This document shows, piece after piece, positions 1,105 through 18,686 of a stretch of 20,479 nucleotides of DNA. Below the pieces are notes generated by a model that ran no database searches, was not told where the DNA came from, and saw only the letters and a program-made list of their open reading frames with translations. Source of the stretch: a virus. Every line of letters begins with the position of its first letter. Positions within the stretch are counted from its first letter, which is position 1. A program made the position numbers and the translations under genes. Location of the stretch: positions 1 to 20,479 of IMG/VR virus record IMGVR_UViG_3300032326_001331. One strand, given 5' to 3'.

Positions 1105-2760
1105 ATGAATGATCAACTTTTAACTGCCATAGATTATAACGAAACTTCTGGTTATAATATGATGATAGTGTGGGATTTAGGACGTAGGTGCAACTATGAT
1201 TGCACCTATTGTACTTTATACATGCATAACTCATGGTCTCCACATTCTGAGATGGAAGAGCTTAAAACTACCATGAAGCATATAGATGAATATTATTCAG
1301 TATATAAATCTTTTCATAATATGAAAATGGATTGTACTATTAGTTTTACCGGTGGTGAACCTACTGTAAATCCAAACTTCTTTAAGTTTGTACAATGGGT
1401 TAGAGAAACTTATCCTAACAAGTATCGTCTTAGCATGACTACTAATGCTACCTGGCCAATGGATACTAGTGAAAAGATTCTTAAGCTTTTTAATATGATT
1501 ACTGTTAGTTATCATACCGAAGCACATTCTAGTCTTAAGCAAAAAGTTGTTAAGAATATTTTAAATCTTCAGGATATTGGACAACGCTTTAAAGTTAACG
1601 TTATGATGCATGCAAATGATCAATATTTTAATGAATGTGTTGATCTTATGGAAAATGTTCTTACACCTCGCAAGATAAGTTTTATTCCAAGAATTATTGG
1701 TGAAAGATTAGAAGAACAACGTAAAGATGAAAAAGATCTTAAAAAGCAAAAAGTAATTACACGAAATAAAGTTCATGCTTATACGCATGATCAGGCAGCG
1801 TATATTACTATGTATTGGAATAAGAAAAATCTTGAATTGACTGATCATGCCTTTGCGAATGTTAAGACACCAAATCTTAGTGTAGAGGATTCTGTTCAAG
1901 GATTTTTTGACAGAATCTCTGCATCTAAAGAAATTGAAGTAGAATCTGTAGAAGAATATCTTTCCAAAGAAACACCTGCTGCACGAAAAGAAATTAAAGA
2001 TATTGAACAAAGACAGATGAAAGCAATAGTTAATAGAGCTGATAAAGTTCCATCACTATTAATTAGTCAGGGTGAGCATTCAGTAGAAAAGAAAACTTAC
2101 ACTCTTATTGATAATGTTAATAAGCCAGCTAAAGCTAGTATTGAAACTGCTAATATAGATTTTAATAAGAAACTAGAAACTATTAGAGAGTCACGTAAGA
2201 ATAAACAAGATCCTTTAAATATTGTTAAACCATTTGAAACTCTTAAGAAGTCTGAATTTGAACAAGATAAAATAGTTGGTCGTTCAATTGGTAGAATGTG
2301 TTGTGGTGGAAGAGATCTATCATGTCAGACAGTTGATTCTGAGAAAGATGAATGGGAAGAGATTAAATTTGCTACCAATACTAATTTTAAAGGCTGGAAA
2401 TGCATGATTAATTGGTTTTTCTTGCATATTGAACAAGAAAAAGATCTCGTATTCCATCATCAGACATGTAGAACAAGTCTTAATAGCGTAGAAGAACCTA
2501 TTGGTAAAGTTAGCGAGTTTCCTAAGATCATATCTAAACTTAAGGATTATCTTTATGGAAATATGGAAATTCCATTGATAACATGCCCGCATGATCTATG
2601 TGGATGTGGAATGTGTGTACCTAAAGCTAAGGATGAAGAGACTGCCAGAAAGCTTTTCCACAAATATATTAAACCTGCAGTTGAACCTATTATGGAACCA
2701 ATATTAATTGGTGATGATGATCTTCAAAAGCATATGAAAGAGATGAGGGATTATAAATAA
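1105..2760 (+). CDS. Radical SAM protein with cysteine-rich C-terminus
   Basis: A 551-residue protein. The radical SAM cluster motif is CNYDCTYC, with Cys29, Cys33 and Cys36 to bind a [4Fe-4S] cluster and S-adenosylmethionine; FTGGEPT follows as the usual GGE motif. The core runs to about residue 220. A charged, Lys/Glu-rich stretch of about 160 residues (225-390) separates it from a C-terminal region with nine cysteines: 399, 400, 407, 433, 455, 494, 499, 501 and 504, the last four as CPHDLCGCGMC. This resembles the SPASM/twitch auxiliary cluster regions of peptide- and sugar-modifying enzymes. The substrate is unknown and no obvious precursor peptide lies next to it. Base composition becomes more AT-rich from here on. 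The stop codon overlaps the late promoter box of the curli-like operon. Confidence 0.85.
   Translation: MNDQLLTAIDYNETSGYNMMIVWDLGRRCNYDCTYCTLYMHNSWSPHSEMEELKTTMKHIDEYYSVYKSFHNMKMDCTISFTGGEPTVNPNFFKFVQWVRETYPNKYRLSMTTNATWPMDTSEKILKLFNMITVSYHTEAHSSLKQKVVKNILNLQDIGQRFKVNVMMHANDQYFNECVDLMENVLTPRKISFIPRIIGERLEEQRKDEKDLKKQKVITRNKVHAYTHDQAAYITMYWNKKNLELTDHAFANVKTPNLSVEDSVQGFFDRISASKEIEVESVEEYLSKETPAARKEIKDIEQRQMKAIVNRADKVPSLLISQGEHSVEKKTYTLIDNVNKPAKASIETANIDFNKKLETIRESRKNKQDPLNIVKPFETLKKSEFEQDKIVGRSIGRMCCGGRDLSCQTVDSEKDEWEEIKFATNTNFKGWKCMINWFFLHIEQEKDLVFHHQTCRTSLNSVEEPIGKVSEFPKIISKLKDYLYGNMEIPLITCPHDLCGCGMCVPKAKDEETARKLFHKYIKPAVEPIMEPILIGDDDLQKHMKEMRDYK
2752..2759 (+). promoter_or_regulatory. Candidate T4-type late promoter for the curli-like operon
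   Basis: An exact TATAAATA lies at the end of the radical SAM gene. In T4 this is the late promoter -10 element read by the gp55 sigma factor. Transcription would start near 2765, giving a leader of about 18 bases that contains the GAGGAG ribosome binding site before the ATG at 2783. The octamer is expected a few times per strand by chance in DNA this AT-rich. The support is its spacing and a matching case at 8763-8770. Confidence 0.5.
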
Positions 2761-2782
2761 AGAAGTAATAGAGGAGTAAAAT

Positions 2783-3220
2783 ATGAAGAAAATAACATTA
2801 ATAATATGTTTATTTTCTTCTGCTTCTTATGCAGGTGAAGTGACTTTTGGATTTAAAAATCCATCTTTTTCTGGTGTCGGCTATTCGTCTCATGTTTTAA
2901 CTATTGATAACCTTGAACAAACAAGGAAGCAGAAGATAATAGAGGACAAAAAAACAGAGGCGGCCAAAGCAGCCGCTGATGCTAAAAACACAAACTTGTC
3001 TAAATTTCTAAATAATCTTGAAAGTAGAATCTACGCAACGATATCACAGAATATCGCTGCAGAACTATTTAAAGAAGGCGGAGCAACTTCAGGATCTTTT
3101 GATATCGGTGGAAATAATTTACAATGGTTGTCTGATGGAACTACTATAACTCTGAGAATTACAGATCCCGGTGGTAGTGTTACGCAAGTGGTAGTACCAT
3201 ACGGGAGTTTAGCATGGTAA
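2783..3220 (+). CDS. csgF: CsgF-like curli assembly factor
   Basis: A 145-residue protein with a Sec signal peptide (residues 1-17, cleavage after SYA) and a strong GAGGAG ribosome binding site. The mature N-terminus reads GEVTFGFKNPSFSG, matching the CsgF N-terminal FxFxNPxFxG segment that, in E. coli, inserts into the CsgG pore neck. The C-terminal region has the CsgF-like pattern of a beta domain (ITLRITDPGGSVTQVVVP). Between them lies an Ala/Lys-rich helical stretch (EAAKAAADAKN) that looks longer or more charged than in E. coli CsgF. It overlaps csgG by 7 bases. Its expected role is to dock on the pore at the cell surface and help nucleate or anchor the exported curlin. Confidence 0.85.
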   Translation: MKKITLIICLFSSASYAGEVTFGFKNPSFSGVGYSSHVLTIDNLEQTRKQKIIEDKKTEAAKAAADAKNTNLSKFLNNLESRIYATISQNIAAELFKEGGATSGSFDIGGNNLQWLSDGTTITLRITDPGGSVTQVVVPYGSLAW

Positions 3221-4041
3221 AATATACATTTTTAATGGTCTGTGCTTTAGTATTAGCAGGTTGTTCTGGTAATAAAATCACATCAAGTAGAGATTTAGAG
3301 AATCAAGTAGATAAAGCAGAGATAATTACTGCAAAAAGATTTAATGAAATCATAAATATACCAGCTGTTTCATCTGATCCTATTCCGGTGGCTGTATACA
3401 AATTTTCTGATATGAGTGGACAAAGAAAACCATCTAGTAATTATGCTAGCTTAAGTTCTGCTGTCACACAGGGTGGAGAAGTTATATTAATTAAATCTTT
3501 ACAGGATGCAGCTAAAGGTAAGTTTTTTAAACCTATTGAAAGAGTTAGTCTTGATAATCTTGTGAAAGAAAGACAACTCATTAGAAGTCAGCGTGAAGTA
3601 TACGAGAAAGAAGAAGCCAAACCATTAACACCACTTATAGTTGCTGGTATTTTAATAGAAGGTGGTATAGTTGGTTATGATAGTAACATAGCAACAGGTG
3701 GTATAGGTGCAAGATATCTTGGTCTTGGTATTCAACAAGAATATCGTAAAGATGAAGTAACAATTATGATGAGATTAATATCCATTAGTAATGGTGAAAT
3801 ATTAATTACAAGTGGTGTAACTAAAACAGTGTATAGTACAGGTGTTAATGCTAATATTTTTAAGTTTGTAGATGCTGGAACTAGATCAGTCGAATTGGAA
3901 GCAGGAACATCTATAAACGAACCAACTACATATGCTGTTAGAATAGCTATAGAAGCTGCAGTAGTTGATATTATAAAGCAAGGTGTGCAGAAGAAGTTAT
4001 GGAAATATAAAGAGACAACTAAAAAGGAAAACAAAAAATGA
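3214..4041 (+). CDS. csgG: CsgG-like outer-membrane secretion pore lipoprotein
   Basis: A 275-residue protein, close to the 277 of E. coli CsgG. A lipoprotein signal peptide with lipobox LAGC places the lipidated Cys at residue 17. The family pattern is clear: VAVYKFSDMSGQRKP, then IERVSLDNLVKERQLIR, then GGIVGYDSNIATGGIGARY, then NGEILITSGVTKTV, and INEPTTYAVRIAIEAAV. CsgG forms a nine-subunit ungated diffusion channel for curlin export. In my manual alignment the E. coli constriction residues Tyr51, Asn55 and Phe56 fall on Ser, Ser and Leu, so the channel gate probably differs. The gene overlaps csgF by 7 bases and the curlin-repeat gene by 4. No csgE-like gene is seen in the window. Confidence 0.93.
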   Translation: MVKYTFLMVCALVLAGCSGNKITSSRDLENQVDKAEIITAKRFNEIINIPAVSSDPIPVAVYKFSDMSGQRKPSSNYASLSSAVTQGGEVILIKSLQDAAKGKFFKPIERVSLDNLVKERQLIRSQREVYEKEEAKPLTPLIVAGILIEGGIVGYDSNIATGGIGARYLGLGIQQEYRKDEVTIMMRLISISNGEILITSGVTKTVYSTGVNANIFKFVDAGTRSVELEAGTSINEPTTYAVRIAIEAAVVDIIKQGVQKKLWKYKETTKKENKK

Positions 4042-4721
4042 AAACCCTAACAAGAATGATTATGTTTTTATCATTCTTCGTTATGACAGGTTATGTAAAT
4101 GCGGCGAACTTAATCTACATGGACCAGATAGGTGATGGTTCTACTATAAACATCACACAGTCTGGTGCTGGAAACGCAATTGGTACATCAAGTGTTAAAT
4201 CATCTTTTACAGGTGATAATAACACAGTGACAATTGAACAAATTGGAAACAATAACGTAACTAATATGACTGTCAGTGGTGATGGTGCTACAATATCATC
4301 TATAGTTAATGGTAGCAGTAATATATTAAATTTAGAGTGTGGTGCTAATGGAGGTTCTTGCGGACCTTCTAATATTACAAAAACTATAACAGGTGATGGT
4401 AACCAGGTAACACAGTCTACAGATACATTAACTACTACTTCTGTTAATGTTCAATCAGATAATAACCAAGTAAATATTACTAGTACTTCAACAGCTGTTG
4501 CTGGTACTAAAAATACAGTTGATATCACTGGTGGTAGCGGTAACATTGTAGATGTTGTGCAAGCTGGCACAGCTGCTACAGTTGGTCATGAAGTTGATTT
4601 AACAATAAATGGTGCTTTAAATACCATTGACTTCAGACAAGGCGGAGCAGTTGACTCTAAGATTGTTACAAATATTACTGGTTCTAGCAACGCTATTACT
4701 ATTAAATCCAACCACAACTAA
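4038..4721 (+). CDS. Secreted curlin-repeat protein (long)
   Basis: A 227-residue protein starting at an ATGA overlap with csgG. A Sec signal peptide covers residues 1-22 (cleavage after VNA). The mature part is rich in Asn, Thr, Gly, Ser and Val/Ile, with degenerate curlin-like strand-turn-strand units such as YMDQIGDGSTINITQSGAGN and VTIEQIGNNNVTNMTVSG, then further weaker repeats to the end. It is the probable amyloid substrate of the CsgG channel. Two cysteines, 101 and 108, sit in ECGANGGSCG; E. coli CsgA has none. The last 95 bases overlap, in another frame, the start of the FecR gene. It could be a CsgA- or CsgB-type subunit; the sequence does not decide. Confidence 0.85.
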   Translation: MKTLTRMIMFLSFFVMTGYVNAANLIYMDQIGDGSTINITQSGAGNAIGTSSVKSSFTGDNNTVTIEQIGNNNVTNMTVSGDGATISSIVNGSSNILNLECGANGGSCGPSNITKTITGDGNQVTQSTDTLTTTSVNVQSDNNQVNITSTSTAVAGTKNTVDITGGSGNIVDVVQAGTAATVGHEVDLTINGALNTIDFRQGGAVDSKIVTNITGSSNAITIKSNHN

Positions 4722-5760
4722 TGCTTCGGTTGGTCAAGTAACAGAACAGTCAGGACCTACAGAGATAAAAAGACAGACTGATGTTATACCCAGTTCTTTG
4801 CAATTTGGTGTAGAGATGAAAGATATCATCACTACAGCAAACTCAAAGGCTGGGATAACTTTTAAAGATGACACTAAAGTTCAAATTACAGAACATAGTA
4901 GATTAGTAATTGATAATTTTGTTTATGATGGCGAAAAGAAAACAGGCAAATTAGGTATCAAGATGGCTCTTGGTACTATAAAATATGCATCTGGTCAGAT
5001 AGCAAAAAATGATCCTCAACAAGTATTAGTAACTACACCAACTGCTACAATTGGTGTTAGAGGTACAGATTTTTCCAGTACAGTTGATGAACTTGGCAGA
5101 TCACAAATTATATTACTTCCTTCATGTCCAATAGGTTGGAAAGACATACAAAAAGATTGTGTGACTGGACAAATCATAGTTTCTTCAGCTATGGGTACAA
5201 TATTATTAACAAAACCATTTGAAACTACAACAGTTGATACAGGTTTTACTAGACCTAGTGCTTCTGTTATATTGAATTTAGATTTAAATCAAATTAATAA
5301 CTTAATCATTGTAAGTCCGCCAAAAATTGTAGAATCTTCTGAAAGAATTTTAGAAAAAAAAGGTTATAATTTTTTAGATGAAGATCTTTTAGGTAAAGAT
5401 CATTTAAAGTTTGCTGAATTTGATAGAGATTTTCTTAAAGAATTTAATAAATTAGATAAAGATTTTTTAGGTACTGATTATCTTTATAACTTTTTAGATG
5501 TTGCTTCTTCGCAGTTTTTATCCGATGAGTTATCAGAATTTAATGCACTTCTTCCTAGATTTAATCCTACAAGTGGATTGAAATTTTTTGTTGAAAATGA
5601 TATACTAACATTGTATAGAGAAACAGTAAATAGCTATACTGAACTAAGTATGTCTCAATATAGAGCTGGTACTCTTAAAATAACTCAAGAAGGCGTAGAA
5701 ATAAAACAAATTATTAATAATACTGGTACAACTATAATTAACATAAAGCAATCAGAATGA
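4627..5760 (+). CDS. FecR-domain periplasmic protein
   Basis: A 377-residue protein if read from the TTG at 4627, the only conventional start before the domain; an in-frame stop lies at 4618-4620 and the next Met is residue 64, inside the domain. From this TTG the N-terminus is a good Sec signal peptide (basic start, LLQILLVLATLLLL, cleavage near TNA at residue 33). The FecR domain follows at about 35-200, with the hallmark TPTATIGVRGTDF at 138-149 and a Cys pair (167, 178) that could form a disulfide. Residues 245-295 are acidic and Phe/Leu-rich. The last 30 residues (ITQEGVEIKQIINNTGTTII and on) resemble a curlin repeat. FecR proteins are periplasmic signalling or ligand-sensing partners and often sit beside CHASE2 cyclases. 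Domain certain; start less so. Confidence 0.85.
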   Translation: MTSDKAEQLTLRLLQILLVLATLLLLNPTTTNASVGQVTEQSGPTEIKRQTDVIPSSLQFGVEMKDIITTANSKAGITFKDDTKVQITEHSRLVIDNFVYDGEKKTGKLGIKMALGTIKYASGQIAKNDPQQVLVTTPTATIGVRGTDFSSTVDELGRSQIILLPSCPIGWKDIQKDCVTGQIIVSSAMGTILLTKPFETTTVDTGFTRPSASVILNLDLNQINNLIIVSPPKIVESSERILEKKGYNFLDEDLLGKDHLKFAEFDRDFLKEFNKLDKDFLGTDYLYNFLDVASSQFLSDELSEFNALLPRFNPTSGLKFFVENDILTLYRETVNSYTELSMSQYRAGTLKITQEGVEIKQIINNTGTTIINIKQSE

Positions 5761-6038
5761 AAATAATAATAGCACTTCTTCTTATGACTTCAACTGCATT
5801 TTCACAGACGATACCTTCGCCTGTAATGAATAATGCTGCAATAAACCTAATAGGAAATTTCAATAATGTTATTATTAATCAATCTGGTATTGGTTTTCAC
5901 AATGTTGTTATTAATAGTACTGGCGACAGTGTTCCCATTAACATTACGCAATCAGGCAATACCAATAAGTCTATACAACTTGATATTCACTGTGTTAGCA
6001 ATTGTGCAACTACTCCTTATATTATTAATCAATATTGA
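5757..6038 (+). CDS. Secreted curlin-repeat protein (short)
   Basis: A 93-residue protein starting at an ATGA overlap with the FecR gene. A signal peptide covers about residues 1-16 (cleavage after AFS). The mature part has two to three curlin-like units (NVIINQSGIGFHNVVINSTG, INITQSGNTN), then HCVSNCAT with Cys79 and Cys83. It may be a nucleator or capping subunit beside the long curlin-repeat protein, in the way CsgB serves CsgA, but that is inference from size and context. No clear independent ribosome binding site is seen, so translational coupling is likely. Confidence 0.75.
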   Translation: MKIIIALLLMTSTAFSQTIPSPVMNNAAINLIGNFNNVIINQSGIGFHNVVINSTGDSVPINITQSGNTNKSIQLDIHCVSNCATTPYIINQY

Positions 6039-6040
6039 AC

Positions 6041-8098
6041 ATGGAAACTTTAGGAAAAATATTAACCAGCGCATGGTCAACTGTTATTTCAGCGATAATA
6101 CTAGTGGCCGTATATGTTTACAACCCTAGTCCAATACAAATATTACAATTAAAAACTTTTGATTTTTTAATAAACACTTTAGAAGATAAAAAATCAGAGG
6201 AAATAATAATTGTTGACTTTGGTGAGAAGTCAGTTAAAGAATTTGGTCAATGGCCATTTGATCGTAGAGATGTAGCAAAAACTGTAAATAAACTAAAAGA
6301 AAATGGCGCTGCTGTAATAGTTATGCCAATACTTTTCTCCGAGAAAGATAGAGCAGGAGGAGACAATGAATTTACAAAAGCTTTGGATGGTGTTGTCATC
6401 GCACAAACACCTACTACTCAAAATATACCACCAGATACAGTACGTCGCGGGTTTGCTTCTATCGGTCCTGTTAACCCTGTCGATTATGTGTTTCGTTGGA
6501 ACGGTGGCATACGTCCTTTATCAGAGCATGCCAAAGTGGCCGGAGGTGTTGGTGTGGTCGCCACCATTAATGAGGTGGATGGTGTGGTTCGTCGTATCCC
6601 TTTACTTGTCAATATTGCTGGCAATTTGTATCCTTCATTACCCTTGGAAACAATTAGGGTTGCCGCCGGTGATCCTAGTTACCAAATTAAAACAAGTGAA
6701 AATGGGCCAGAATTTGTTAGAGTACCAGCATTCGCGCCGATACAGACTGATGAAAGAGGCAGAATCTGGTCAACGTGGAACACAAAATTCGAAAGAATAG
6801 AAGCTACAGAGATTGACCAACGCGTTCAGAATAAAATAGTAATTTTAGGCATTTCAATAGAAGGTGTAGGTGGTATAATAGCTACACCAACTGGTGAGAA
6901 GTGGGCTCATGATATACAGGCTAGCGCACTTCAGACAATTATTGATGGTTCTTCTATATCTAGACCAGGATATAGTAATCTAATTGAAAAAATTATATTA
7001 ATAAGCGTATTAATAATATTAATAATTTTAGTGCCTAGAACATCCGTTAAGTGGACTATTCCAGTTTATGTTGTAATTGTAGTATCATGTGTTACATTTG
7101 CAGTTTATATGTTTAATCAACATATGCAATTGTGGGATACTAGTTATTTGTTATTTGCTTCTACTCTAACATTTGGTCATCTTGTATTCAACAATTTTGC
7201 ACGTGAATTTAGATTAAAGCAACAGATTAAAAAACAGTTTGGCACTTATCTATCACCAGCACTTGTAGAAAAACTACAGAAGAACCCAGAGTTATTGCAG
7301 CTTGGCGGAGACACTAGAGAGCTATCAATCATGTTTACTGATGTTCGCGGCTTTACTAATATTAGTGAGCATTACGGAAGCGACGTTCAAGGATTAACAA
7401 AAATAATGAATCGCTATATGACAGCGATGACAGCTAAAATATTAGATAATAATGGAACTCTTGATAAGTACATTGGCGATGCACAGATGGCTTTTTGGAA
7501 TGCACCACTTGATGATGCAGATCATGCTAAACATGCGGTTAAAACAGCATTAGAGATGTTAGGTGACTTGGAAAAATTCAACAGAGAGATTGCTGACGAA
7601 GGTGTGCCTCCTTTTGGGATGGGTCTTGGTATTAATACAGGTAGCGTTGTGGTCGGAAATATGGGATCTAGTCAACGTTTTGATTACACTTGTTTGGGTG
7701 ATTCTGTTAACTTGGCAAGCCGTCTTGAAGGACAGAGCAAGCCGTATCATGTAAAAATGATTATTGGTCAAAGAACATACGAATTGGTAAAGGATGAATA
7801 TCTCTGCCTAGAACTTGATTGTCTGGCAGTTAAAGGTAAAAAACTAGGTGTAAATATTTACACTATAGTACCAAAAACAGCTCTTAATAGAGCATATTCA
7901 AAAACTCATAATGATTTTATTAAGCTATATAGAGAACAAAATTGGTTAGCTATAGATGAGTACTATAAAACATTAAAAAATGCTTTTGATGGTGAGATGA
8001 ATGAATATTATGATATGATGATGGAGAGAATAGAGGAATTTAAGAAAAATCCTCTATCATCTGATTGGGATGGTGTTTATCGTGCCACTAGTAAGTAA
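6041..8098 (+). CDS. CHASE2-domain adenylate cyclase, membrane-bound
   Basis: A 685-residue class III nucleotide cyclase starting at ATG 6041; a TTG at 6035 overlapping the upstream stop is an alternative. An N-terminal membrane helix (about 13-28) is followed by a periplasmic CHASE2 sensor domain (about 35-310, with QWPFDRRDVA and DGVVRRIPLL), three membrane helices (about 313-387) and a cytoplasmic catalytic domain (about 425-615). Catalytic residues are intact: metal-binding Asp434 (FTDVRGF) and Asp480 (YIGDAQMAFW), adenine-selecting Lys476 and Asp548, and transition-state Asn557 and Arg561 in NLASR. The Lys/Asp pair points to ATP rather than GTP. The expected activity is cAMP production in the host cytoplasm in response to a periplasmic signal, perhaps via the FecR protein. 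It ends one base from a convergent gene. Confidence 0.93.
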   Translation: METLGKILTSAWSTVISAIILVAVYVYNPSPIQILQLKTFDFLINTLEDKKSEEIIIVDFGEKSVKEFGQWPFDRRDVAKTVNKLKENGAAVIVMPILFSEKDRAGGDNEFTKALDGVVIAQTPTTQNIPPDTVRRGFASIGPVNPVDYVFRWNGGIRPLSEHAKVAGGVGVVATINEVDGVVRRIPLLVNIAGNLYPSLPLETIRVAAGDPSYQIKTSENGPEFVRVPAFAPIQTDERGRIWSTWNTKFERIEATEIDQRVQNKIVILGISIEGVGGIIATPTGEKWAHDIQASALQTIIDGSSISRPGYSNLIEKIILISVLIILIILVPRTSVKWTIPVYVVIVVSCVTFAVYMFNQHMQLWDTSYLLFASTLTFGHLVFNNFAREFRLKQQIKKQFGTYLSPALVEKLQKNPELLQLGGDTRELSIMFTDVRGFTNISEHYGSDVQGLTKIMNRYMTAMTAKILDNNGTLDKYIGDAQMAFWNAPLDDADHAKHAVKTALEMLGDLEKFNREIADEGVPPFGMGLGINTGSVVVGNMGSSQRFDYTCLGDSVNLASRLEGQSKPYHVKMIIGQRTYELVKDEYLCLELDCLAVKGKKLGVNIYTIVPKTALNRAYSKTHNDFIKLYREQNWLAIDEYYKTLKNAFDGEMNEYYDMMMERIEEFKKNPLSSDWDGVYRATSK

Positions 8099-8099
8099 A

Positions 8100-8453
8100 T
8101 TACTTTACTTTGTCAGTTTTTTTTTCTGGATAGCTAGCGGACTTCTGCTCTGGTGGAAATTTAATTTTAATCTGGTCTTTAACAACAAAATTATGAGCTT
8201 GCTTTGTTAATTCATCATGTTCCATTTTACGTAGTTGAAGAACTATATTAACTTTTTGATTTAAGCGAATAAGATCATTATCAAGCATGCGAATACGATC
8301 AATCAGCGCAATTAAAACTTTATTAGCTTCAGATAACACAGGTTTAACTTCCTGAGTTGCCCATGTCCAAACATAAAAAATCATATAACCCATACCTGCT
8401 GCTGCAACGATAGGGAAACCATATTTTGATATTAGTTGAGCAATATCACCCAT
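8100..8453 (-). CDS. Holin-like small membrane protein B
   Basis: A 117-residue minus-strand protein with a GGAGAG ribosome binding site 7 bases before its ATG, 2 bases downstream of its paralogue. The N-terminus YGFPIVAAAGMGYMIFYVW is one membrane segment (about 11-31), followed by a heptad-like helical part (about 40-90) and a charged Lys-rich tail. The layout of one N-terminal membrane helix plus coiled coil plus basic tail resembles BhlA/UviB-type and other small phage holins, proteins that permeabilise the inner membrane to time lysis. The function is inferred from architecture and the probable late promoter, not from a firm family match. Confidence 0.6.
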   Translation of the reverse strand: MGDIAQLISKYGFPIVAAAGMGYMIFYVWTWATQEVKPVLSEANKVLIALIDRIRMLDNDLIRLNQKVNIVLQLRKMEHDELTKQAHNFVVKDQIKIKFPPEQKSASYPEKKTDKVK

Positions 8454-8455
8454 GT

Positions 8456-8737
8456 TTAATCTCTCCTTGCATCATTTTTACCATCTGCGCGAGCAATACG
8501 ATCAATATCAGGTTTAACACCCATAGCATTGGAAACAAGAGTATCAATTCTAATAACATCATGATTCATGGTCTTAACTCTATTATCTAAAGCAGTAATA
8601 ATGCCACTAAGACCTTGCACACTACTCATAACACCAGCTAAAATAAATTTAATAGTAAGAAAAATAAAGTATCCCATGGCGCAGGCAGCTGCAATAGGAA
8701 AACCAACATCCGCAATTAATTTGAACCATGTATCCAT
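8456..8737 (-). CDS. Holin-like small membrane protein A
   Basis: A 93-residue minus-strand protein with GGAG 7 bases before its ATG. The N-terminal DVGFPIAAACAMGYFIFLTI matches the downstream protein's GFPIVAAAGMGYMIF, and both continue with a helical region having the pattern ITALDNRVKTMNHDVIRID versus LIALIDRIRMLDNDLIRLN. The two are therefore tandem paralogues. One membrane helix (about 10-35) and a charged C-terminus suggest a holin-type membrane protein; a structural or regulatory partner of the second copy (holin/antiholin) is possible. A T4-like late promoter lies about 26 bases upstream. Confidence 0.6.
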   Translation of the reverse strand: MDTWFKLIADVGFPIAAACAMGYFIFLTIKFILAGVMSSVQGLSGIITALDNRVKTMNHDVIRIDTLVSNAMGVKPDIDRIARADGKNDARRD

Positions 8738-8762: not shown

Positions 8763-8770
8763 TATTTATA
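8763..8770 (-). promoter_or_regulatory. Candidate T4-type late promoter for the holin-like pair
   Basis: On the minus strand these bases read TATAAATA exactly. Transcription would start near 8757, giving a leader of about 19 bases that holds only the GGAG ribosome binding site before the ATG at 8737. The geometry is the same as at the curli-like operon. A TATAAT on the plus strand (8767-8772) overlaps it and could serve nrdA, but it lacks a convincing -35 element. Confidence 0.5.
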
Positions 8771-12354: not shown

Positions 12355-13444
12355 TTCAAATAATAAAAAAGATCATTTAACAGTAAAGGCATTTTTCGAT
12401 GATGCACCCACTATTGCAAGATATGATAGACAGAAGTATCCTTGGATTGAGAAACTCACAGACAAGCAACTTGGGTTTTTTTGGAGACCTGAAGAAGTGG
12501 ATATCTACAAAGATGCAAAAGATTTCAAAGAACTAACTGAACATGAGCAACATATCTTTACATCAAATCTAAAACGCCAGATCCTTCTTGATAGTGTGCA
12601 AGGTCGAGCCCCAACAATGGCATTTGGACCTATTTGTAGTTTGCCTGAATTGGAAACTTGGATCACAACATGGGCTTTCTCTGAAACAATTCATTCACGT
12701 AGTTATACACACATTATCAGAAACATTTATCCAAATCCATCAAAAATCTTCGATGAAATAATGAATATTCCTGAAATTACTGAATGTGCTGGCGATATTA
12801 GTAAGTACTATGACGAATTAATTTGGATGAATAATCTATCGCCTCGAGAGCGTGATAATGTATTTGATGAACCAACAAATTATGGCCATAAGAAAACTCT
12901 CTGGCTTGCACTTATGTCGGTAAACATTCTTGAAGGTGTTAGATTTTATGTCTCGTTTGCATGTTCATGGGCATTCGCTGAAGTCAAAAAGATGGAAGGA
13001 AATGCTAAGATCATCAAACTTATCGCTCGTGATGAAAACTTACACCTTGCAGGAACCCAACAATTGCTTAAGGCGTTGCAAAAAGAAGATGCTGATTTTG
13101 CGAAAATTGCAGAGGAAACAAAGGATGAATGTATTAAATTATTCGTTGACGCAGTCGAACAAGAAAAGCAATGGGCTAAATTTCTATTTAAAGATGGGTC
13201 GATGATTGGTCTAAATGAGCATTTGCTGAGTGAATATATAGAGTGGATTGCTAATAAAAGAATGACTGCAATTGGACTGCCTACTACATATAAAGGTGGA
13301 AGTAATCCATTGCCTTGGACACAGAAGTGGATCAGCGGTTCTGATGTACAGGTTGCTCCACAGGAAACTGAGATTACAAGTTATATTAATGGTGGTGTTA
13401 AGAAAGATGTAACAACGGACACATTTAAGGGGTTTATCCTTTGA
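12335..13444 (+). CDS. nrdB: NrdB, class Ia ribonucleotide reductase small subunit
   Basis: A 369-residue protein, normal length for NrdB, with AAGGAA upstream of ATG 12335. It houses the di-iron centre and the tyrosyl radical used by NrdA. The ligands and radical residue are present: Asp86 (LLDSVQGR), Glu117 and His120 (SETIHS), radical Tyr124 (SYTHII), Glu200 (LEGVRFY), Glu234 and His237 (DENLHL). This makes it the classic Tyr-radical class Ia type, not the Phe-bearing class Ic. The C-terminus (DTFKGFIL) is the tail that would dock on NrdA. It is separated from nrdA by four small genes in the same orientation, and its stop overlaps the next gene's TTG. Confidence 0.97.
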   Translation: MVYSVFDSNNKKDHLTVKAFFDDAPTIARYDRQKYPWIEKLTDKQLGFFWRPEEVDIYKDAKDFKELTEHEQHIFTSNLKRQILLDSVQGRAPTMAFGPICSLPELETWITTWAFSETIHSRSYTHIIRNIYPNPSKIFDEIMNIPEITECAGDISKYYDELIWMNNLSPRERDNVFDEPTNYGHKKTLWLALMSVNILEGVRFYVSFACSWAFAEVKKMEGNAKIIKLIARDENLHLAGTQQLLKALQKEDADFAKIAEETKDECIKLFVDAVEQEKQWAKFLFKDGSMIGLNEHLLSEYIEWIANKRMTAIGLPTTYKGGSNPLPWTQKWISGSDVQVAPQETEITSYINGGVKKDVTTDTFKGFIL

Positions 13445-14142
13445 TATCTTTTATTATACCGTGCTATAATGAAGAACAATATATTAAAGAGTGTATTCAA
13501 TCTATTATGATAGAAGCTGCACTAATTCCTTATGAAATAATTGTTATAGATAATAATTGCACTGACAATACCGCTTCAATCGCATCACAAGAAGGTGCGA
13601 TTGTTGTTTCTGAAAAGCAAAAAGGTGTAGTGTTTGCCAGACAGAAAGGTTATGAAATTGCGCAATATGATCTAATTGCAAACATCGATGCTGATTCTAG
13701 ATTGTGTAAAGGTTGGATTAAGACTGCATTATCTCAGATAAATAACGATGATGTGGTTGCTGTTACTGGTCCTCTTGTATATGATGACGTTTCAAAAACA
13801 ATGACTATTATGACCAAGATGTATTATTATCTTGCATGGTTTAGTAATAACTATATTGGTGTTTTTCTTCAAGGAGGTAATGCTCTTATAAAGAAATCTG
13901 CCTTAGATAAAGTAAATGGTTATGATACATCTATTGCTTTCTATGGTGAAGACACTATGACAGCAAAAAGATTAAATGAGTTTGGTGAAATTAAATTTGT
14001 TATGAAATTAAAATTGCATTCATCTCCAAGGAGATTAAAAGATCAAGGTGTATTGAAAACGACTTGGTTATATCTATCTAATTATTTTTCCGTGACATTC
14101 AAAAATAAATCCACTACAAATGATTATAAGGATTTTAGATGA
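13441..14142 (+). CDS. Family 2 glycosyltransferase
   Basis: A 233-residue protein starting with a TTG that overlaps the nrdB stop (TTGA). It opens directly with MISFIIPCYNEEQYIKEC, the GT2 nucleotide-sugar fold, followed by VIDNNCTDNT and the metal-binding DxD-type NIDADS (Asp83, Asp85). FYGEDTMTAKRL supplies the ED acceptor-side motif. GT-A enzymes of this kind transfer a sugar from a nucleotide-sugar; donor and acceptor are unknown. The last residues overlap the LpxH-like gene (ATGA), suggesting paired roles at lipid or envelope sugars. A strongly hydrophobic patch around 125-140 (MYYYLAWFSNNYIGVFL) suggests membrane association. Confidence 0.88.
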   Translation: MISFIIPCYNEEQYIKECIQSIMIEAALIPYEIIVIDNNCTDNTASIASQEGAIVVSEKQKGVVFARQKGYEIAQYDLIANIDADSRLCKGWIKTALSQINNDDVVAVTGPLVYDDVSKTMTIMTKMYYYLAWFSNNYIGVFLQGGNALIKKSALDKVNGYDTSIAFYGEDTMTAKRLNEFGEIKFVMKLKLHSSPRRLKDQGVLKTTWLYLSNYFSVTFKNKSTTNDYKDFR

Positions 14143-14879
14143 AGTCATATAAAACAGTATTTATTTCCGATATTCATTTAGGCACAAAAATGAGTAGAGC
14201 AGATCAATTGCTCGAATTTATGAAAACGTTTGAATGTGATAAAATATATTTGGTTGGTGATATTATTGATTGCTGGGCTATGTCAAAGAAAACAATATGG
14301 TCGCAGTTTCATAATGACGTTATTCAAAAATTATTGCGTAGAGCAAGGAAAGGCACAGAGATAGTTTACATACCCGGTAATCATGATGAAGTAATGCGTG
14401 ATTATTGTGATAATGAATTTGGACATATCATCATAGCAAAAGAATCAATACATATTGGTGCAAATGGTAAACTTTACCTCGTTACTCATGGCGACCAATT
14501 TGATATTGTAATGAGAAATGCCAAATGGTTGGCTCATCTTGGTTCATGGGCCTATGATGTTAGTATATCTATAAGTATTGCACTTAATAAAGTTAGAAGT
14601 TTGTTTGGTATGTCTCATTGGTCTTTGTCTTCATATCTAAAAAATACCGTTAAAGAATCAGTAAATTTTATTGGTGACTATGAAGAAACATTAACAAAAT
14701 ATGTTAAAAATAAAGGATTGAATGGTATCATTTGTGGGCATATTCATCATGCTAATATAAGAGATATTGATGGAGTAACCTATATGAATTGTGGTGATTG
14801 GGTTGAATCATGCACAGCATTAGTTGAGAACCACGATGGTTCATTTGAAATTATATATTTTAAAGGAAATTTATCATGA
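14139..14879 (+). CDS. LpxH-like metallophosphoesterase
   Basis: A 246-residue calcineurin-like phosphoesterase. The metal-site motifs are in order: Asp11 and His13 (SDIHLG), Asp41 (GDIIDCW), Asn81 with His82 and Asp83 (GNHDE), His117 (THGDQFD) and His201/His203 (GHIHH). The GDIIDCW and THGDQFD signatures resemble UDP-2,3-diacylglucosamine pyrophosphohydrolases (LpxH), which act in lipid A synthesis at the inner membrane. Specificity for UDP-diacylglucosamine is inferred; another pyrophosphate substrate is possible. It overlaps the glycosyltransferase on one side and the Cys-rich protein on the other, each by ATGA. Confidence 0.88.
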   Translation: MKSYKTVFISDIHLGTKMSRADQLLEFMKTFECDKIYLVGDIIDCWAMSKKTIWSQFHNDVIQKLLRRARKGTEIVYIPGNHDEVMRDYCDNEFGHIIIAKESIHIGANGKLYLVTHGDQFDIVMRNAKWLAHLGSWAYDVSISISIALNKVRSLFGMSHWSLSSYLKNTVKESVNFIGDYEETLTKYVKNKGLNGIICGHIHHANIRDIDGVTYMNCGDWVESCTALVENHDGSFEIIYFKGNLS

Positions 14880-16623: not shown

Positions 16624-17322
16624 ATGCAACAATATATTTCAGAAGCTAGAAATGACGTTATCTATGATGAAGGTCTTCGTAACTTCATGCTTAATGTTTA
16701 TAATTATATGACTTTTGCTCTTGCAGTTAGTGGTCTCGTATCACTTGGCATTAACATGAGTCCGGATCTTCTTAAATTGATCTGGGGTACAAATTTTAAG
16801 TGGATTGCCATCTTCTCACCATTGGCTATGAGCCTTGCTTTTGCTTTCCTTGTACAGAATATGAGTGCTTATAGTGCTCGTATTTTCTTGATAGCATTTG
16901 CTGCTGTCATGGGTCTTAGTATGAGTTCAATTTTCCTTATCTTTAAGCTCGGAAGTATTGCACAGGTATTCTTTATTACAGCCGCAACATTCGGTGCTAC
17001 TTCTTTGTATGGTTATACTACAAAGAGAGATCTTACAAACATCGGTAGTTTCTTAATGATGGGTGTAATTGGTCTTGTTATTGCAGGTTTAATCAATGTA
17101 TTCTTGCAAAGTTCTATGATGTCATTGGTTATTAGTTGTATCTCTGTAATTGTATTTGTTGGTCTTACAGCATATGATACACAGAATCTTAAGAATACCT
17201 ATGATGAACTTGATGAAAGTGAGAGAGAAAAGGCTGGAGCTATTGGCGCTTTCAATCTCTATATCAACTTCATCAATATTTTCATGGCACTTATGAATAT
17301 TCTAGGTGAGAAGAAAGAATAA
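16624..17322 (+). CDS. Bax inhibitor-1/YccA family membrane protein
   Basis: A 232-residue multispanning protein with TAAGGAG before ATG. Hydrophobic segments lie at about 26-44, 58-77, 84-107, 112-131, 142-161, 166-184 and 206-226, as in the TMBIM/BI-1 family. Family motifs YGYTTKRDLTNIGSFL and GLTAYDTQNLKNTYDE are present. Family members are cation or calcium leak channels, or (YccA) inhibitors of the FtsH protease. Asp185 of AYDTQ is kept, but the second sensor Asp in the C-terminal LYxDFIN segment is Asn215 (LYINFIN). In a phage it could protect or modify the host membrane before lysis. Family identity is firm, function is not. Confidence 0.88.
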   Translation: MQQYISEARNDVIYDEGLRNFMLNVYNYMTFALAVSGLVSLGINMSPDLLKLIWGTNFKWIAIFSPLAMSLAFAFLVQNMSAYSARIFLIAFAAVMGLSMSSIFLIFKLGSIAQVFFITAATFGATSLYGYTTKRDLTNIGSFLMMGVIGLVIAGLINVFLQSSMMSLVISCISVIVFVGLTAYDTQNLKNTYDELDESEREKAGAIGAFNLYINFINIFMALMNILGEKKE

Positions 17323-17423: not shown

Positions 17424-18686
17424 GTGAAAGATAATTTTTGGAATAGAAGTCTTAATGTTAGTGAACCCGCATGTTTACAAAAATGGGAATGGTCTACGAT
17501 ATATCTTATGCAACAAAATTCAAGTAGTTGTCATAGAGTAGATAAAGAACCATTTGATATAGAAACTTTTAATTTTCATAATACTCCTGGTGTTCTAGAA
17601 GCAAGAACACAAATGCTTAATGGTGTTTGGCCAGGTAAAGGGTGCGAGTATTGTAAAGATCTTGAAGATTCTGGCGGTTTAAGTGATCGTCAACAAGTTA
17701 ACAATAATTATAAGCTTTGGCATCTAACACCTAAAGAATTAGAACAAAACAATAAAAGTATTAATGTAACTCCATCAACATTGGAAGTTTATTTTTCAAA
17801 CTTATGTAATCAAGCCTGCTTATATTGTTATCCAAGATATAGTTCTAAAATAGAATCAGAACATAAAAGATTTAATCCACAAAATAAAGAATTAGAATTT
17901 ATTAATACACAAAAAAAGAATTATCAACAAGCTAAAAATAAATTTTGGTTATGGATGCAAGATAATTGTATTAACCTAAAAAGATATAGAATCTTAGGTG
18001 GCGAACCATTCTATCAAGAAGAAATATGGGAAAATATAAACTTCTTTAAAAATAATCCATGTTCTGAATTAGACATCCAGATATTCACTAATTTTAATGT
18101 AGACACTCAACGAGTTAGAACTATATTACAGGCATTCAAAGATCTTATAGATAACAAATATATAAAAAGTTTAAGATTAATACTTAGTATTGATGCATGG
18201 AGTCCAGCCGGAGAATATGTTAGAAGTGGATTAAATAATAAACTCTGGAAACAAAACTTTGATATGCTTAATACTGAATTTATTGAAGATTTTTCAGTTA
18301 CAGTACATTCAACGTTATGTAATTTGAATATAAAAACAACAGCAAACCTTGCTGAACTATTTAATCAATCTAATCTATCAAAGTTAAAATCTAATTTTCA
18401 TGATTTCGCATTAGCTGGAGGTCATGAACATCTATACATTGGTAATTTTCCAACTGGTTTTTTTGATGATGATTTTGATTTACTAATAAGTAAAGTTCAA
18501 GATTTACATAACACAAAAGAACAACTAACTGGTTTTAAAATTTTAGCTAATTCTAAACCATACAAACCAGACTTAATCTATGCACTTAAAAATTATTTAG
18601 ATAGCAATGATGCTAAAAGAAATACTAATTGGAAACAAACATTTCCTTGGTTAGAAAGTTTTAATCCAGAAGATTATAAAGAATGA
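17424..18686 (+). CDS. Radical SAM protein with N-terminal twitch domain
   Basis: A 420-residue protein with a GTG start and TAAGGAAAA upstream. The N-terminal part has the twitch-type pattern [16 protein letters not shown] (Cys36), [18 protein letters not shown] (Cys74, Cys77) and SDRQQVNNN. The radical SAM motif CNQACLYC (Cys128, Cys132, Cys135) and [11 protein letters not shown] follow. This order, with an auxiliary-cluster domain before the core, matches the N-terminal-twitch radical SAM group often seen in phages; substrate unknown. It follows the CAT tRNA by 19 bases and overlaps rlpA by 4. It is clearly different from the radical SAM protein at 1105, so it is not a duplicate. Confidence 0.87.

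Follow-up and report, generated by a model that had tools for sequence, protein, structure and literature searches.

A phage curli, FecR and CHASE2 cyclase module with near-constant small partner genes and T4-type late-promoter motifs

The virus record IMGVR_UViG_3300032326_001331 was analysed over its entire length of 20,479 bases (referred to here as the window), with a focus on a run of genes encoding a curli-type secretion pore (CsgG and CsgF), two curlin-like proteins, a FecR-domain protein and a CHASE2 nucleotide cyclase. We identify the window, which comes from a T4-like phage, as a new member of an already described phage curli module. Measured against the parts of the published descriptions available to us, two aspects are new: two small genes, here named smA and smB, are near-constant members of the module, and late promoter motifs stand at csgF and smA. 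We propose, with moderate confidence, that these eight genes, arranged in two operons, form a phage module that would export amyloid, signal from the envelope and act late in infection. The features concerned are the following (aa, amino acids; nt, nucleotides):

2752-2759, plus strand: late promoter motif TATAAATA, exact T4-type, 23 nt before the csgF start and followed by an AGAGGAG ribosome-binding site
2783-3220, plus strand: csgF, 145 aa, with a signal peptide and an N-terminal F-x-F-x-NP-x-F-x-G CsgG-binding motif (PF10614, 9e-18)
3214-4041, plus strand: csgG, 275 aa, lipoprotein-type outer-membrane secretion pore (PF03783, 2.5e-48)
4038-4721, plus strand: curlin-like protein 1, 227 aa, exported, with N/Q/G repeats
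4627-5760, plus strand: FecR-domain protein, 377 aa (PF04773, 3e-11)
5757-6038, plus strand: curlin-like protein 2, 93 aa, exported, with Q-x-G repeats
6035-8098, plus strand: CHASE2 class III nucleotide cyclase, 687 aa, inner-membrane receptor type (PF05226, 6.6e-39; PF00211, Guanylate_cyc, 1.8e-20)
8100-8453, minus strand: smB, 117 aa, with one N-terminal hydrophobic segment and a charged coiled-coil-like tail (phrog_18771)
8456-8737, minus strand: smA, 93 aa, a paralogue of smB (also phrog_18771) and the best conserved of all the module's proteins
8763-8770, minus strand: late promoter motif TATAAATA, exact, 25 nt before the smA start, with a GGAGA ribosome-binding site

The six plus-strand open reading frames from 2783 to 8098 constitute one overlapping operon, with successive overlaps of 7, 4, 95, 4 and 4 nt. 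An earlier note, made from the letters of this stretch alone, had described six genes overlapping end to end, and the positions of the reading frames agree with it. Its left edge, 2752, is the exact start of the TATAAATA motif, and the two module genes that it missed lie just past its right edge on the minus strand (8100-8737). Its assignment of CsgG, CsgF and the cyclase to their families was likewise correct; these and the FecR domain all scored above the Pfam gathering cut-off (CsgF, 65.1 bits against PF10614, cut-off 25.8; CsgG, 164.6 bits against PF03783, cut-off 20.8). The N-terminal CsgG-binding segment of CsgF, VTFGFKNPSFSG, aligned to MTFQFRNPNFGG of E. coli CsgF (6l7a), and profile comparison matched CsgG to the E. 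coli CsgG structures 3x2r and 6l7a at 3e-61. In NCBIfam, both csgG and csgF are related to the E. coli equivalogs, with scores under the cut-off.

The two curlin-repeat proteins of the earlier note stand less firmly. Curlin-like protein 1 scored below the Pfam cut-off for Curlin_rpt (E = 0.0013; 19.1 bits, cut-off 20.7), and curlin-like protein 2 gave no Pfam match. We retain both calls because of their Q-x-G/N repeats, the alignment with the annotated curlin of phage HTVC008M and synteny, and for protein 1 also because its AlphaFold model is all-beta (pLDDT 86.4, pTM 0.79). The residues Q30, G32, Q41, G43, Q68 and G70 of protein 1 are conserved in the family alignment, while protein 2 aligns with, and sits like, the second curlin-like genes of HTVC008M and of phage Melnitz. 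The alignments behind the structure predictions contained no rows from annotated records.

The earlier note knew of no comparable unit. This claim of novelty does not stand, as the six-gene unit was described in 2022. Wittmers et al. (2022, PMC9599517), in the part of that publication available to us, report this gene set from pelagiphages of the podo and myo types, extending an earlier csgFG report by FecR, the cyclase and a histidine kinase ("HK"). A tblastn search with CsgG retrieved HTVC008M and four Melnitz phages. HTVC008M (gp014-019) and Melnitz (gp99-104) encode csgF, csgG, curlin, FecR, a second curlin and the cyclase in the order of the window, at 37-46% protein identity to it for csgF, csgG, FecR and cyclase. 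The podovirus modules in that part of the Wittmers description have a histidine kinase, or two of them, ahead of csgF, whereas the window has a radical SAM gene there and carries smA and smB convergently downstream. The late promoters, the near-constant smA and smB, and the occurrence on contigs of 278-349 kb are features found here that go beyond the same part of that description (PMC9599517).

The linkage of the core genes is strict. A scan of IMG/VR with FecR gave at least 487 relatives, of which 80 were kept, and the order csgF-csgG-FecR-cyclase is preserved at 35 of the 35 FecR loci that leave enough space for the unit. Related phages thus retain the set rather than lacking it, and the view of the genes as one coupled unit is borne out. 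Pairwise comparison with two relatives yielded dN/dS values of 0.003-0.17 for seven module genes (curlin-like protein 2 not included), a sign of purifying selection. A few copies are frame-broken (FecR in L013 and L041; cyclase in L021, L022 and L045), possibly through assembly errors.

The window itself encodes phage-type NrdA and NrdB, a SegE-type endonuclease, a ClpP-like protease, a CHAP protein and tRNAs. Relatives of the locus were found on 16 long contigs (118-349 kb), all of which carry csgG; a gene for a T4-type Gp23 capsid protein is present on 14 of the 16, and a terminase gene likewise on 14. Therefore, the locus is phage-encoded, and the bacterial chromosome or chimera that the earlier note had named as refuting it does not apply. 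The co-occurrence with capsid and terminase genes, which the earlier note had named as a check, was thus observed on 14 of the 16 contigs.

smA and smB belong to the curli module and are near-constant in it. For the IMG/VR queries with smA and smB, the best 80 of at least 559 and at least 590 matches, respectively, were kept, with distant relatives less sampled and some contigs matched by both queries. Among the 67 resulting loci with room (at least 7.5 kb on either side), the cyclase was present in every case and all four core genes in 59, and at none was the unit missing. Conversely, both smA and smB accompany 32 of the 34 FecR-query loci with room; of the two loci without the full pair, L071 is rearranged and L073 breaks off near the unit. 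When 50,697 phage records were considered, smA occurred in six, the same six that have a full-length CHASE2 cyclase and an annotated csgG. At the protein level, smA is identical to its counterpart in L006 (aa identity of 1.00) despite saturated synonymous divergence. The pair is placed directly upstream of csgF at 15 loci, convergently behind the cyclase at 16 (the arrangement of the window) and otherwise at one. The counterparts in HTVC008M (gp011-gp012) and Melnitz (gp97-gp98) lie just upstream of csgF.

There, smA and smB hold the position published for "HK, sometimes two". None of the 28 phage contigs searched, which include 16 long ones, gave a match to the HATPase_c (histidine-kinase ATPase) domain, while 14/14 control genomes did. 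Because no such domain was found and smA and smB occupy that position, we infer that the published label refers to these two genes. Further, four contigs binned as Flavobacteriaceae, Rhodobacteraceae and Pirellulales (L092, L095, L096 and L097) carry smA and smB along with the curli unit, whole or only its right-hand portion. This gene content at 34-37% GC makes them look like misbinned phage DNA.

Three exact copies of TATAAATA are present in the window, two of which precede csgF and smA. In relatives, 55 of 150 smA genes have the motif close to their start, compared to 3.5 expected from shuffles, and so do 28 of 121 csgF genes. It was detected for 24/66 csgF genes that head their operon and for 4/55 that are preceded by smB. 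The relatives behind these counts are not independent; the internal genes act as controls: near the starts of csgG, FecR, cyclase and smB, the motif was counted 0, 0, 1 and 0 times (about 120 genes for the first three). HTVC008M, for which a late sigma factor is annotated, has TATAAATA before 7 of 22 structural genes and before csgF. As the motif precedes both operons in the window and in many relatives, the csgF and smA operons are probably expressed late in infection. Frequently, as at L001:7549 and at many smA and csgF starts, only 5 nt separate the motif from the start codon (position -13), which would indicate either leaderless late mRNAs or mis-set starts.

The signal peptide of the FecR-domain protein is encoded within the 3' end of the gene for curlin-like protein 1, in another frame (the 95-nt overlap). 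Its AlphaFold model (pLDDT 80.9) comprises a signal helix, a FecR fold at residues ~36-205, a poorly modelled variable linker and a confident C-terminal unit of six beta strands (residues 318-375) with conserved Q354 and Q375. In an alignment of 48 rows, the proteins end in this two-glutamine unit, with Q375 invariant and Q354 nearly so. By eye, the C-terminus (5578-5760 in the window) resembles a curlin repeat. A profile of the tail failed to pick curlins above chance, and this identity remains a suggestion.

In a Foldseek search, the FecR model matched the periplasmic domain of PupR and that of a second anti-sigma regulator (6ovk, 4m0h). The cytoplasmic anti-sigma part and the transmembrane helix are absent from the protein, its signal-peptide-like N-terminus directly preceding the FecR fold. 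The label of an iron regulator is not supported, because the cytoplasmic anti-sigma part is missing. Besides PF04773, no Pfam family above chance was common to the 17 FecR members scanned, and the nearest named FecR proteins in NCBIfam are the surface proteins Lsa33 and LipL45. The role of a periplasmic sensor, given to FecR in the earlier note, is unproven, since the protein is exported and devoid of the anti-sigma part, and its counterpart next to a Sinorhizobium CHASE2 cyclase is dispensable for signal perception (PMC5498481).

All catalytic residues of the cyclase are in place, as the earlier note had stated: the metal-binding D436 and D482, the adenylate-type K478 (base-binding) and T552, and the transition-state residues N559 and R563. 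D436, D482, K478 and R563 are kept in all 112 distinct full-length phage cyclases compared. In 20 of the 112, Melnitz included, N559 is replaced by Ser and T552 by Asp, the same 20 both times, possibly with altered activity or substrate. The solved cyclases nearest to the window cyclase include CyaB (3r5g). From its residues, the phage enzyme is predicted to produce cyclic AMP (cAMP), and through it the phage would signal to the host. Overall, the earlier interpretation is supported in part, namely for a phage-encoded, coupled unit with a conserved cyclase active site, and is not supported for the novelty of the unit.

The module shares with the E. coli curli (type VIII) secretion system (6l7a) the CsgG and CsgF families, the pore-binding N-terminus of CsgF and putative exported curlin-repeat substrates. 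Unlike the phage module, all of the 20 ordinary alphaproteobacterial curli loci compared lack FecR as well as the cyclase. FecR adjoins a CHASE2 cyclase without curli in many bacteria. In the CyaD1 (CHASE2 cyclase)-SMc02177 (FecR)-Clr system of Sinorhizobium meliloti (PMC5498481), FecR is encoded near a CHASE2 adenylate cyclase, as in the phage module, in a setting of envelope cAMP signalling, which is proposed for the phage as well. In contrast to the phage module, no curli genes are described for it, SMc02177 is a target of the cAMP control and is not required for signal perception, and the receptor Clr is encoded nearby (PMC5498481).

We propose the following course of events. A phage late sigma factor would read the TATAAATA promoters ahead of csgF and smA. 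CsgG and CsgF would form an outer-membrane pore, through which the two curlin-type proteins may leave the infected cell and assemble on its surface. The exported FecR-domain protein would act with the pore or the fibre outside the cytoplasm, and the inner-membrane CHASE2 cyclase may gauge envelope or secretion state and pass it on, via cAMP, to a host target. smA and smB could be coupling or effector subunits that work with the cyclase or the pore. The purpose would be a late remodelling of the infected cell surface, leading to aggregation, retention of progeny or a block of adsorption. Such remodelling is the likely role and the one that we prefer, its benefit to the phage being presumed. A more specific version, which we consider possible but doubtful, is a late envelope signalling machine, complete in itself and peculiar to phages, in which FecR and the CHASE2 cyclase sense amyloid export through CsgG, raise cAMP and, together with smA and smB as phage-specific inner-membrane proteins, decide the fate of the envelope. 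That fate would, just as tentatively, be a delay of lysis, aggregation or progeny retention.

Several observations weigh against this proposal. The genes, their order, linkage and conservation, the catalytic residues and the late-promoter motifs are read directly from the sequence, and every functional step is inferred from them. Both curlin assignments are weaker by profile, and a fold search of the PDB with the model of curlin-like protein 1 yielded no significant match. TATAAATA precedes only about one third of the operon heads, and in HTVC008M 3 of the 18 genes for replication or other functions have it too. A cyclic nucleotide-binding domain was found in 0 of the 16 long phage contigs, which leaves a target encoded by the host or one of a different type. 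CsgE is not described for the phage modules in the available part of Wittmers et al. (PMC9599517), and Melnitz-infected cultures showed no clumping (Buchholz et al. 2022, PMC9004378).

The strongest rival to surface remodelling is a role in lysis timing, which we consider rather unlikely. In this extension of Buchholz et al. (2022), who proposed CsgG as a pinholin- or secretin-like, lysis-related pore, CsgG together with smA and smB would permeabilise or depolarise the envelope late, with the cyclase as trigger or brake. The late promoters are compatible with such timing, and the window encodes an RlpA-type gene in addition to the CHAP-type gene. smA and smB are holin-like in size and in having one hydrophobic segment; smB gave a weak match to the holin family phrog_4898 (residues 1-21 only, E = 1.2e-4), and a YvrJ match was below the cut-off. 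However, among the 50,697 phage records smA and smB occur only in curli phages, whereas a general holin would be expected also in T4-like relatives without curli. Further, CsgG is an outer-membrane pore and would not depolarise the inner membrane, and CsgF and two curlins would be superfluous for lysis.

Superinfection exclusion as the main role, with fibres or pore coating the infected cell and blocking other phages, appears slightly less probable still. It would suit the surface-active products and the neighbouring GT2 glycosyltransferase and LpxH-like phosphoesterase genes, and it has been put forward before, in the part of the literature accessible to us. With late promoters, however, protection would set in only at mid to late infection. 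T4's own exclusion genes are early. The earlier note had listed exclusion among its possible roles; an early form of it fits poorly with the late promoters, and it stays as a rival role.

We consider improbable the import of nutrients or iron, proposed by Wittmers et al. (2022), in which an ungated CsgG pore and an iron-type FecR regulator would supply the infected cell. The published modules, as far as described in the part available, have no CsgE gate, and our structure search confirms the FecR fold. The FecR protein nevertheless carries a signal peptide and lacks the anti-sigma part, its FecR domain is the only one above chance in the 17 members, its nearest named relatives are the surface proteins mentioned above, and import would leave two curlins and the cyclase unexplained. 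Finally, that the module is decaying cargo without function is refuted by the low dN/dS, the catalytic residues kept in 112/112 cyclases and the order kept at 35/35 loci, the few frame-broken copies notwithstanding.

The six-gene unit without smA and smB was also detected on two contigs of Caulobacteraceae metagenome-assembled genomes with bacterial flanks and 54-57% GC (L093:7049-13106 and L094:7086-13106). In a quick cyclase tree these copies fall inside the phage clade, while a CsgG tree leaves their placement unresolved; transfer of the unit from phage to bacterium is possible. We do not claim a bacterial origin of the unit, since with the Caulobacteraceae copies branching inside the phage cyclases, phage-to-bacterium transfer is as likely. 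Just downstream of the cyclase on L093, a PycTM gene (Pycsar effector; PF18967, 8.8e-25) is located at 13548-14141. A Pycsar link as part of the module was rejected, as the close relative L094 has no PycTM gene at that place. A CsgG match at 37% identity in OR851715.1 (Salmonella phage S.Kent 1-2-1; 1,499 bases) is probably host DNA.

Elsewhere in the window, a GT2 glycosyltransferase gene followed by one for an LpxH-like phosphoesterase (13441-14879) adds further envelope-modifying genes to the same phage. A membrane protein of the Bax1-I/YccA family is encoded at 16624-17322 (PF01027, 1.7e-55; no PHROG match). Two radical SAM proteins are encoded at 1105-2760, directly upstream of csgF, and at 17424-18686, the latter of the twitch-domain type and above the NCBIfam cut-off.

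The module is not confined to the described pelagiphages and was found in T4-like contigs of up to ~350 kb, with capsid-bearing contigs of 140-350 kb among them. The present data call into question the published labels of histidine kinase and of iron regulator. Phage curli genes have so far been explained by competing ideas, namely sibling capture (Zaragoza-Solas et al. 2020), superinfection exclusion, import and lysis control. The two near-constant small membrane partners, the probable control by late promoters and the strict conservation of the cyclase active site narrow these competing explanations, which are testable in HTVC008M and Melnitz.

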